A stretch of DNA of 46,783 nucleotides from Minisyncoccota bacterium (GTDB taxonomy: Bacteria; Patescibacteriota; Minisyncoccia; Phycocordibacterales; Phycocordibacteraceae), in NCBI GenBank assembly GCA_028695415.1, contig JAQVIY010000001.1:1-46783 (forward strand). The letters run 5' to 3'. Position numbers and translations under genes: made by a program. How positions within the stretch are numbered: position 1 is the first letter of the stretch; each line of letters begins with the position of its first letter. The notes below the pieces were generated by a model. That model did not search any database, had not been told where the DNA came from, and saw only the letters and a list, made by a program, of their open reading frames with translations. Of the stretch, positions 12,903 through 34,017 are shown piece after piece.

Positions 12903-13631
12903 TTAGCGCACTACGGACCACTCCTTATACGCAGCTTTGTTGCGAAGCGCGACCGAGATGCCGTTCTTGAGCCAGATGCCGTAGGTGCGAAGCCAGCCGA
13001 GCTTGTGCGGCCGCCGGAGCGAGTGCTGTACGAAAAGCTTCCAGTAGGAGAGTGTGCGACCTTTCCTCGCGAGCTGACGGAAGAGCTCGTTGTCTTCGCC
13101 GGCGGCGAGATGTTCGCTAAATCCACCCATATCTCGGAAGGCATCAGTGAGCACCATCTGAAATTCGCCTGAAGAATTACCCGAGTGCAGGATGTTATTC
13201 AAAAGGATATAGGACCAGTTGAGTGGCGCACAGAAGAATGCGTCAACGAGTGAATGATTCTCAGGCCACGGTTTCAAGGGGACCGTGATGCCGACGAGCT
13301 TTTGGTTCTTCGCGAACACCGAGAGAGCTTCTTCAAAAAACTTTTGCGGAGCGGGAATGAGCACGTCGGCATCTATGAACACGAGAAATTCGCCCGAGGC
13401 GAGAGCCGCGCCGGCATTTTTCGCTTCGCCGAAGGTCTGGCGGCGCGGCTTGTCCCACACCGTTATCTTCGCGTCATATGCGCGTGCTATATCGAGCGTC
13501 TTGTCCTTGCTCCCGCCGTCGGTGATGATAATCTCGTGCGGGAGCGAGAGCGTTTGTAGATTTTTCAGCGTGCGTTCGAGGAACTGTTCCTCGCGCAAGG
13601 TCGGAATAATAATCGAAAGGGTAGGAGGCAT
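12903..13631 (-). CDS. GT2-family glycosyltransferase
   Basis: LSIIIPTLREEQFLERTL, IITDGGSKDKT, FLVFIDADVL, AAGEDNELFRQL. Confidence 0.88.
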   Translation of the reverse strand: MPPTLSIIIPTLREEQFLERTLKNLQTLSLPHEIIITDGGSKDKTLDIARAYDAKITVWDKPRRQTFGEAKNAGAALASGEFLVFIDADVLIPAPQKFFEEALSVFAKNQKLVGITVPLKPWPENHSLVDAFFCAPLNWSYILLNNILHSGNSSGEFQMVLTDAFRDMGGFSEHLAAGEDNELFRQLARKGRTLSYWKLFVQHSLRRPHKLGWLRTYGIWLKNGISVALRNKAAYKEWSVVR

Positions 13632-13635
13632 GAAG

Positions 13636-14679
13636 TTATTGTTTCTTCACCCAGAGATAGAGATCTTCCATCGCCTTCGCGCCGTCGCCTGCGGCGATAT
13701 TGTTTTGATGGTACAACTCATCCGTACAATCTCCAGCGGCCCAAACGCCGTCGAGGGGCCCACCTGCTTTGTTACGGAGCCTCTGCGACTCGGGCGTCGT
13801 ACTAGCTTGTACGCCTTCCTCGCCGCTTTCTCCGTGCCTCGCATCTGAATCCCTCGACGGCGTTTGCAAGATTAGGTGAGCGCGCTGATTATGAGGATCG
13901 ACGACGATACGATCCACCGCATCAAACTCGACGAGCCCCTTGGCGAAATCGGTGTTCGGGACGACACCCGTCTCGACGAAAATGCCGGATGCGGGGATCT
14001 CGGTTGTCTCACCGGTATCCTTGTCTTTATACACGAGGCTTGAGACGAATTGTTCACCCTTCACCTCGGTCGGTTCAGCGTTCGTGATGATGTGCATATT
14101 CGGATGTGCTTGCGCCTTTGCGACCGTGACTGCGTCCGCCTTGAACTCCTTATGGCGATGAATGAGAGTGACGGACTTCGCGTAGCTGAGAAGCTGGAGC
14201 GCAGTTTCGAAACCGGCGTTGCCGCCGCCTATGACTGCGACATCCATGCCTGAGAACAAGGGGCCGTCGCAGGAGGCACAGTAGGTAACGCCCTTGTTCT
14301 CGAACGTATCGGCGCCAATAGCAGAGAGCTTGCGTCGTCCGGCACCCGAGGCTATCATCACCGCCTTTGCGCGGAATTCTTTTCCTGATTTCGTTATTGC
14401 TATGAATTCGCTATCGGTTTTTGAGAGAGAGACAACGCGCTCACCGAGGGCGAGCTCGAGCTTGTCGCTTTTCACCGCCTTCAGATGCGACTCGAACGAC
14501 TTTGCGAGATCCTCGCCGCTTATCTTTACGCTCCCGACCCAATTCTCAATACCTTCCGACACGCTCGATTGCCCGCCTATCTTCTCAGCGATGAGGACAG
14601 ACTTCAGATGCTTGCGCGCCGCATAGATGCCAGCGGCGACTCCGGCGGGCCCGCCGCCGATGATGATGGTGTCGTACAT
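13636..14679 (-). CDS. trxB: thioredoxin reductase-like FAD/NAD(P) oxidoreductase, carrying an in-frame palindromic insertion near the C-terminus
   Basis: IIIGGGPAGVAAGIYAARK, CASC redox motif, VIGGGNAG, GVWAAGDCTD; start revised to MYDTIIIGG at 14679. Confidence 0.9.
   Translation of the reverse strand: MYDTIIIGGGPAGVAAGIYAARKHLKSVLIAEKIGGQSSVSEGIENWVGSVKISGEDLAKSFESHLKAVKSDKLELALGERVVSLSKTDSEFIAITKSGKEFRAKAVMIASGAGRRKLSAIGADTFENKGVTYCASCDGPLFSGMDVAVIGGGNAGFETALQLLSYAKSVTLIHRHKEFKADAVTVAKAQAHPNMHIITNAEPTEVKGEQFVSSLVYKDKDTGETTEIPASGIFVETGVVPNTDFAKGLVEFDAVDRIVVDPHNQRAHLILQTPSRDSDARHGESGEEGVQASTTPESQRLRNKAGGPLDGVWAAGDCTDELYHQNNIAAGDGAKAMEDLYLWVKKQ
13742..13866. repeat. nested palindrome inside trxB
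   Basis: CAAACGCCGTCGAGGG (13742-13757) / CCCTCGACGGCGTTTG (13851-13866) 16-bp perfect; inner ACGGAG (13774-13779)/CTCCGT (13830-13835) and CGTAC-tagctt-GTACG. Confidence 0.9.
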
Positions 14680-17762: not shown

Positions 17763-17776
17763 AAATATCTTTTAGA

Positions 17777-17895
17777 GCGTGTTCAAAAATTCTCAAATGC
17801 GAGGCACGGGTAGTTGGTTTTTGTAGACGTATGTGCGATACGGCGGAGAAAATCAACGGGCCCCGTAACGAAGCAGTTGAAGTTTTTGGACATGC
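17777..17895. repeat. nested palindrome between rpsU and ybeY
   Basis: GCGTGTTCAAAAA (17777-17789)/TTTTTGGACATGC (17883-17895) with two G.U; TCAA/TTGA; ACGGG/CCCGT; TTG.TTTT/AAAA.CAA; CGTAT-gtgcg-ATACG. Confidence 0.75.
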
Positions 17896-17896
17896 C

Positions 17897-18163
17897 CTAG
17901 CGCTTGCGTGTTTTCTTCGCGGCGGGATCAATCTTGCCAAGCTTCACGAGCTCGTTGTAATTTTCGCGGCGGACTTTCGAGACGAGGGCGCGCTTGTGTT
18001 CGACGTTCTTGGAGCGGGTGCGCTCATAGTAGCGGCGGTCGCGCATCTCGCGCACGAGCCCGAGGCTCTGCGCGCGGCGGGTGAAGCGGCGGATAAGCGC
18101 CATCGTACTCTCGTTTTTACCGCGGCGTACCTCGACGCGCGTGCTTGCTGTTATTTCTGTCAT
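17897..18163 (-). CDS. rpsU: ribosomal protein bS21-like
   Basis: ALIRRFTRRAQSLGLVREMRDRRYYERTRSKNVEHKRAL is bS21-like. Confidence 0.8.
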   Translation of the reverse strand: MTEITASTRVEVRRGKNESTMALIRRFTRRAQSLGLVREMRDRRYYERTRSKNVEHKRALVSKVRRENYNELVKLGKIDPAAKKTRKR

Positions 18164-30011: not shown

Positions 30012-31055
30012 ATGAAAAGAGTCTCTCAGCTCGCAACATTCCTCGTTGCTCTCGGGGCGCCGTTCTTTGCGGCAGCTCAAACCGGCATCAACACCGCTTA
30101 TATCAAGAGCTATTCCGACAGCATCATTTACATCATCAATAGCATTCTTGTTCCTCTTCTTATCGCGCTCTCATTTATTGTCTTCCTCTATGGCGTCTAT
30201 CGCTATTTTATCCAGGGCGCCGCGAGCGACTCTGATCGTGAGACGGGGCGGCAATTCGCGCTTTGGGGTGTCATAGGTTTCGTCATCATCGTCTCCTTGT
30301 GGGGCATTGTGAATCTCTTTACGAGCACACTCGGGCTCACGGCGAGGAATGTTCCGGGATTCCCGGTGTTTAGTACCGGTACCTACGCACCGCCGAGCGG
30401 TGCGCCGGGAGGGACGTATGTATCTGGAGGCGCCGGAACTCCCATCGGTGGTGGCAGTGGAGGCGGAGGCTCAACGCTCGGTGGAGGTGGAGGTATGACT
30501 CCAGCACAATCGGCAGCCCTTACGTCGCTTCAAGGGCAGTACGCGAACTGCCTCAGCTCGGGTAGCCCCTATAGCGCGTTATGCACCTCATATAAGACCG
30601 CCCTTGAGACATACAATGCGGCGTTCTCAAACGCAGCGAATTCGGGAAACGGTGCCTCGTCGGCAAGCACGCCTCCGGTCTTATCCTGCCCGGCAGGCTG
30701 CTTCCAAGCCGGCTCTGAGTGTGTCTCTGACGCCGACGGATTCACACTCTGTACGTCTAACGACTCTTCCACCTTATCCTGCCCGGCAGGCTGCTTCCAA
30801 GCCGGCTCTGAGTGTGTCTCTGACGCCGACGGATTCACACTCTGTACGTCTAACGACTCTTCCAATGGAGGAAGCACTTCGTGTCCTCCCGGACCGGATG
30901 GTGAGACGTATACCCTGCAAAATGGCCAATGCGTTCAAGATGCGGCCGCTGGCAGTAGCGATTCGGACACCTTATTGCCGAGTGGTGCGGCTTGCAGCAA
31001 TTCTGCCCAGTGTGCGTCAAATGATTGCCCGATTGATACATTCACATGCTCGTAA
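30012..31055 (+). CDS. T4SS pilin-like protein fused to a long Cys-rich repeat-containing tail
   Basis: NSILVPLLIALSFIVFLYGVYRYFIQGAASDSDRETGRQFALWGVIGFVIIVSLWGIVNLF then Gly-rich linker and Cys-rich repeats; start at MKRVSQLATF (30012). Confidence 0.78.
   Translation: MKRVSQLATFLVALGAPFFAAAQTGINTAYIKSYSDSIIYIINSILVPLLIALSFIVFLYGVYRYFIQGAASDSDRETGRQFALWGVIGFVIIVSLWGIVNLFTSTLGLTARNVPGFPVFSTGTYAPPSGAPGGTYVSGGAGTPIGGGSGGGGSTLGGGGGMTPAQSAALTSLQGQYANCLSSGSPYSALCTSYKTALETYNAAFSNAANSGNGASSASTPPVLSCPAGCFQAGSECVSDADGFTLCTSNDSSTLSCPAGCFQAGSECVSDADGFTLCTSNDSSNGGSTSCPPGPDGETYTLQNGQCVQDAAAGSSDSDTLLPSGAACSNSAQCASNDCPIDTFTCS
30681..30864 (+). repeat. tandem duplication, 93-bp unit (31 aa) with 91-bp identity
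   Basis: TTATCCTGCCCGGCAGGCTGCTTCC...CGACTCTTCCA at 30681-30771 and 30774-30864. Confidence 0.95.
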
Positions 31056-33766: not shown

Positions 33767-33839
33767 GCGCCTATAGCTCAGTTGGTAGAGCAGCTCCCTC
33801 TTAAGGAGACGGTCCCAGGTTCGAGCCCTGGTAGGCGCA
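33767..33839 (+). tRNA. tRNA-Lys (CTT)
   Basis: GCGCCTATAGCTCAGTTGGTAGAGCAGCTCC-CTCTTAA-GGAGACGGTCCCAGGTTCGAGCCCTGGTAGGCGCA. Confidence 0.93.
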
Positions 33840-34017
33840 CTCGTAAACGAAGTGTGGCTGGTGCGTCTAAGCGTGTCTGGGAGACACGCATCCAGGGTGA
33901 GAAGACCTTGCGAGCTGACTTCGGAGTCTGCGACGAAGTATCCGCAAGGTGTACTGTTCCTGTAAGGAAAGAGCCCTGGTAGGCGCACTCGTAAACGAAG
34001 TGTGACTGGTGCGCCTA
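33823..34017. repeat. 47-bp direct repeat of the tRNA-Lys 3' end and flank, 148 bp apart, bracketing structured DNA
   Basis: GAGCCCTGGTAGGCGCACTCGTAAACGAAGTGTG(G/A)CTGGTGCG(T/C)CTA at 33823-33869 and 33971-34017; inner hairpins GCGTGTCT/AGACACGC, ACCTTGCG/CGCAAGGT, ACTTCG/CGAAGT, TTCCT/AGGAA. Confidence 0.93.

Follow-up and report, generated by a model that had tools for sequence, protein, structure and literature searches.

Why should a thioredoxin reductase carry some forty residues, found in no relative, directly ahead of its GVWAAGDC motif? The gene, trxB, lies in the 46,783-nt stretch of a Minisyncoccota contig that was analysed as a whole (hereafter the window; Table 1). An earlier note on this DNA had described an in-frame palindromic insertion in trxB at 13742-13866, and that description holds: the structure is a hairpin of 125 bp whose 16-bp arms are perfectly complementary, and across it the trxB reading frame is unbroken. 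The note's count of about 40 extra residues before DGVWAAGDC is supported by 54 relatives, in all of which both trxB flanks align while the gap between query residues 268-270 and 308-312 is closed or nearly so. Relatives read ..DPHNQRTSVEGVWAAGDC.. or similar at the site, where the present protein reads ..DPHNQRA[HLILQTPSRDSDARHGESGEEGVQASTTPESQRLRNKAGGP]LDGVWAAGDC.., so that the 41 codons (13878-13756) stand for one, a net gain of 40 amino acids. The insertion occurs in none of the 54 relatives with alignable flanks; close relatives sharing the loop in non-palindromic DNA, which the note had named as evidence against its reading, are thus not among them. A search of the host's own genome returned a single trxB match, and the insertion-bearing gene is therefore its only trxB. 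A palindromic target already present at this position was considered and rejected, because the orthologs have a single codon there.

Table 1. Features of the trxB locus and of the second element copy in the window.
Feature	Coordinates	Strand	Basis
trxB, thioredoxin reductase, carrying the insertion	13636..14679	-	Translation; Pfam Pyr_redox_2, 5.4e-39; sole trxB match in genome
41 extra codons (HLILQ...GGP) in place of one ortholog codon, directly before GVWAAGDC	13756..13878	-	Alignment with 19 relatives
CACCTAATCTTG, 12 nt of extra DNA outside the hairpin, neither native nor hairpin	13867..13878	-	Letters compared with orthologs
Complete hairpin element with outer arms, ~125 nt	13742..13866	-	Inverted-repeat search and fold; ends agree with family-wide end
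Conserved core, covariance model R1 positions 1-107	13751..13857	-	R1, 93 bits; the trxB copy is one of the 20 used to build R1
Upstream arm CAAACGCCGTCGAGGG, inverted complement of native target codons	13851..13866	-	Inverted-repeat search; target defined by orthologs
Downstream arm CCCTCGACGGCGTTTG, encoding native LDGVW	13742..13757	-	Letters, translation, orthologs
Second copy in the window, between rpsU and ybeY	17774..17898	+	R1 match 17783-17889, 96.7 bits; ends TAGAGCGTGT / ACATGCCCTA

Since its length keeps the frame open, the insert can be read as a loop of about 41 residues. In the structure prediction that the earlier note had proposed, the extra codons probably form a disordered loop before GVWAAGDC, with residues 274-308 at pLDDT below 50 in a model of modest quality (mean pLDDT 69.8). 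The closest solved structure to TrxB is alkyl hydroperoxide reductase subunit F (1fl2), with five residues between the matched stretches. If the insert is read through, peptides such as HGESGEEGVQASTTPESQR are expected.

The two arms form the sole inverted repeat within 13600-14000, each of 16 nt, 100% complementary and 93 nt apart. As RNA of the gene strand the hairpin is near-continuous (-75.1 kcal/mol, z = -5.3), and none of 200 shuffled sequences folded as well. The earlier note was right that one arm encodes the native residues (LDGVW), with the correction that the arm which it called the right one, 13757-13742, is the downstream arm in the sense of the gene. It had also equated the extra DNA with the hairpin, which is mostly so, except for the 12 nt at 13878-13867 that lie outside.

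The palindrome might be a single oddity of trxB, as the note supposed, produced once by template switching. Perfect 16-bp arms built on one native coding sequence fit such an origin, and the palindrome itself is real, but its interior of about 90 nt belongs to a structured, conserved element that is repeated many times in this and related genomes. When the trxB hairpin was compared by blastn with the 93 genomes of the genus, the interior, without the outer arms, was found at other loci (best match 1.3e-14, in G110; several others in G094, G105, G106, G029, G074 and G109). Because homologous interiors occur at other loci in many genomes, the trxB hairpin is a member of a dispersed family; moreover, its arm ends at the family-wide position, which also contradicts a one-off event, and we regard that origin as very improbable. 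An assembly chimera or a binning error is no more credible. The data do come from a MAG, but the frame is intact, both flanks belong to one gene, the contig is 209 kb long, five further copies lie in the same genome, and a chimera would not recreate the family at other loci in dozens of genomes.

A covariance model, R1, was built from 20 copies, the trxB copy included. Aligned, these share a fixed frame, CAGATGCGAGGCRCGG - stem - GGAGRCGTAC..GTACGRCGGAAGA - stem' - CCGYAACRAAGCAGRTG, in which R and Y covary, and the consensus also holds conserved unpaired nucleotides. The MAFFT alignment of the 20 copies was made without fitting to structure; in it 93% of cells pair and 19 of 30 pairs vary on both sides. 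Both sides are changed in 90 cells, whereas shuffles gave 25 and slid controls 12-23. This is a large excess over the slid versions, though the shuffle count is not to be read as a probability because the copies are related. The stems thus stay paired while their sequence varies freely. Core length is 105-109 in 121 of 123 copies; in one copy (L300:988-1150) the apical loop is longer by about 56 nt, perhaps through a nested insertion. Left and right flanks also pair: over the nine positions outside R1, Watson-Crick pairing among 119 distinct copies is 0.61, compared with 0.31 when partners are shuffled (z = 22); at positions 10-12 and 13-20 it is no higher than background. Since flank pairing stops there, the element ends 9-10 bp beyond R1, and the limits of the trxB copy so defined are exactly 13742-13866. 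The sequence of this terminal stem is specific to each copy, with only a weak TAGARC/GYTCTA preference, although the ends are paired. No Rfam 15 family exceeded its gathering threshold: 13 element loci gave only a tRNA, and the window region nothing relevant. The element is a previously uncatalogued hairpin repeat with a core of about 107 nt and a full length of about 125 nt.

At genus level R1 has matches in 40 of 93 genomes, at order level in 83 of 297, and at phylum level in 39 of 380. Copy numbers reach 40 in G105 and 28 in G094, with 20 apiece in G067 and G106; the host has six, two of them in the window. The second of these overlaps the end of rpsU, whose stop codon (17897-17899) falls within or beside the terminal arm. 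As an outside control we used 50 unrelated bacterial and archaeal genomes, drawn from a chance 16-mer scan; that scan, of genome contigs with the trxB arm, gave 103 matches where about 120 were expected by chance and was itself uninformative. Most of the 50 were negative with R1, but an Omnitrophota MAG gave 35 matches and an Alistipes MAG 14 (G768 and G795; L436-L454), while a Nitrospirales genome gave two weak matches and an Oscillospiraceae MAG one at threshold. The Omnitrophota copies have the same anatomy and end at a stop codon; in these the outermost CAG/CTG is almost constant and the inner arm bases vary in pairs. Because Omnitrophota and Alistipes carry copies, the element is not restricted to the Candidate Phyla Radiation (CPR), and its true host range is probably wider than a CPR-trained model reveals. 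Phages and plasmids gave no match to the element, and two gapped consensus patterns found none in viral contigs. Two other repeats were seen in the window, a perfect 92-bp tandem duplication at 30680-30864 (start-to-start 93) and a 47-bp direct repeat, 96% identical, at 33823-33869 and 33971-34017 (start-to-start 148 bp).

Placement is far from random. In 91 of 116 copies the stop codon of an opposite-strand gene lies -8 to +12 nt from the right boundary, compared with 4.6% of random positions at the same loci; at the left boundary the figure is 20 of 116, compared with 5%. In most copies the strand that looks structured is antisense to the gene it adjoins. These genes belong to ordinary housekeeping families (S15, S10, L31, AhpC, ribonucleotide reductase and others); none of the families listed is a transposase. 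At the rpmE 3' end of one genome (G113, L417) a different hairpin, TAAAACTG...CAGTTTTAG, which may be a decayed or divergent form, stands where other genomes have the element. Similar hairpins following stop codons (CAGGNTGTTCAAAAAG...CTTTTTCA..) occur in deltaproteobacterial and Nitrospirae genomes, where they are candidate relatives.

Nine of the 123 copies lie in frame inside genes. Copies within genes run in the gene's orientation in trxB, comEC (two genomes, same site), recG, uvrA and ksgA, and in the opposite orientation in lepA and ileS (two genomes). Orthologs of comEC, uvrA, recG and lepA are free of the element and have short variable loops at the site. Same-orientation copies share a frame: in comEC, recG and uvrA, and in more diverged form in trxB, the encoded peptides resemble (S/P)DARRG..GV..GTTE...RNKADG; the ksgA copy changes frame midway. 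In other genomes these surface loops contain further small palindromes, in lepA (L374, L376, L381, L382 and L385), recG (L369) and uvrA (L330): a PERSEG-type CCGAGCGAAGCGAG, GGGGCCCC and, in uvrA, a palindrome of about 40 bp.

Could the element instead be a functional RNA or DNA structure, selected at gene ends for 3'-end processing, mRNA protection, bidirectional termination or protein binding, of which the trxB copy is a stray? Its placement at stop codons, its conserved unpaired nucleotides and its compensatory changes would all suit such a role. When copies were compared by core similarity, those at rpsJ, nrd and ComEC were mostly mutual nearest relatives, which suggests that they were inherited between genomes, and the rpsJ arms have since been altered together; this too speaks for such a role. 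Those at rpsO and rpmE mostly were not: their nearest relatives lie elsewhere, which suggests separate insertions at one site. Such recurrent, apparently independent copies argue against a selected function, as do the patchy occurrence (40 of 93 congeners), the in-frame copies within genes and the antisense position of the structured-looking strand in most copies; we consider this explanation possible but doubtful.

The earlier note had seen in the left arm an inverted copy of the target. That arm is indeed the inverted complement of the native one, although the note overlooked the interior, and the same relationship recurs elsewhere: the far arm mirrors host coding sequence at several sites, so the idea generalises. 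One such site is rpmE (L31), whose protein ends KQRA[AS]KK[x]* whether or not the element is present; five genomes have there a far arm complementary to the gene's own last codons (aagaagcgc, aaaaaacgc, aagaagcac, aagaagctg, caaaaagaaa). Pairing in copies with a coding inner arm is at least as good as in the remaining copies. Because the rpsJ arms co-change, complementarity is also kept up once the element is in place, whether through selection or through hairpin-templated repair. Tentatively, the element may fill in its terminal stem from the adjacent host strand, of which 9-16 nt would be copied, each insertion then carrying an inverted copy of the target at its far end; this is a proposal that we hold with reserve. 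If it were true, host-strand copying would amount to a mode of insertion for which the stem length has been measured, and we know of no described mobile element that inserts with a host-copied terminal stem.

We therefore read the trxB insert, with a probability of about 0.86, as one copy of a hairpin element that is dispersed, non-coding and non-autonomous, MITE or RPE-like in character and found mainly at gene 3' ends with the stop codon in or beside its terminal stem. The element, which is or was presumably mobile, would have landed in a loop of trxB, where the insertion is probably tolerated rather than useful. The host-matched arm could have arisen, at insertion or later, from copying of the adjacent host strand by fold-back synthesis or by template switching at the hairpin, and insertions would persist at the least harmful positions, namely stop codons and surface loops. 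Counted against this dispersed-element reading are the 12 extra nucleotides that adjoin the trxB copy and the rpsJ and nrd copies, which look inherited rather than freshly moved. No target-site duplication was seen by eye at trxB, and no transposition event was observed.

A mobilising enzyme was looked for and not found, which also counts against this reading: Y1_Tnp (PF01797) is absent from G000, G074, G076, G094, G105 and G106, and the reverse transcriptase domain RVT_1 from G022, G074, G076, G094, G105 and G106. Being missing from most of the element-richest genomes, neither a Y1 transposase nor a reverse transcriptase is a general resident helper, and both were rejected as mobilisers. This bears on a further alternative, that the element is a REP/RAYT-type repeat moved by an IS200/IS605 Y1 transposase. 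REPs with GTAG or CGTC tagged ends likewise overlap stop codons, often supplying them to flanking ORFs, and some lie within ORFs such as recB (PMC3733652). They are 20-40 bp long, however, and the GTAG class uses the RAYT transposase, whereas the present element is about 125 nt with a core of 105-109 and has no GTAG in its consensus. Together with the missing PF01797, these differences make such an origin improbable.

Annotators should be aware that some of the "loops" by which conserved proteins of CPR stand out are the text of a presumably mobile element. Few genomes are as small and compact as those of CPR. Our literature search, which took in subscription journals only in small part, found no description of the element in CPR. 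R1 supplies a covariance model for a hairpin repeat that has no Rfam entry, across the phylum and in Omnitrophota and Alistipes, and it opens two questions: how a hairpin comes to mirror the neighbouring host sequence, and why a structured repeat lies so often on stop codons.

Among known systems, an integron attC site was one candidate, since on the antisense strand the hairpin comes after stop codons; it was rejected because the R boxes are missing: the right side reads CCGYAAC, but its AAC lies opposite unpaired GC and no GTT is present (R'' RYYYAAC / R' GTTRRRY). The multicopy family of Geobacter bemidjiensis and G. metallireducens, which lies within genes on both strands without frameshifts (PMC2996986), is comparable by description rather than by sequence, the likeness being in-gene copies without a frameshift. 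MITE-like ERIC/RU-1 (127 bp) and the 107-bp form of Correia resemble the element in size, in terminal complementarity and in having intergenic and some in-frame intragenic copies (PMC2229807), but its paired ends vary from copy to copy, and no fixed terminal inverted repeat, target-site duplication or parent transposon was found (Y1_Tnp and RVT_1 were searched). The Rickettsia palindromic elements (RPE) are long stem-loops of 105-146 bp, dispersed and in frame inside conserved protein genes, and an RPE-bearing gmk is still active (PMC2229807, PMC10969869). Compared by description, the present element is like them in being a 125-bp hairpin with in-frame copies in unrelated conserved genes (trxB, comEC, recG, uvrA, ksgA, lepA, ileS), and differs in its hosts, in the overlap of most copies with stop codons, and in a copy-specific terminal stem that can match the host. 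By analogy, it would act like an RPE while forming a new family in new hosts, and would thus extend selfish palindromes of the Rickettsia type, lodged inside working proteins, to the Candidate Phyla Radiation.
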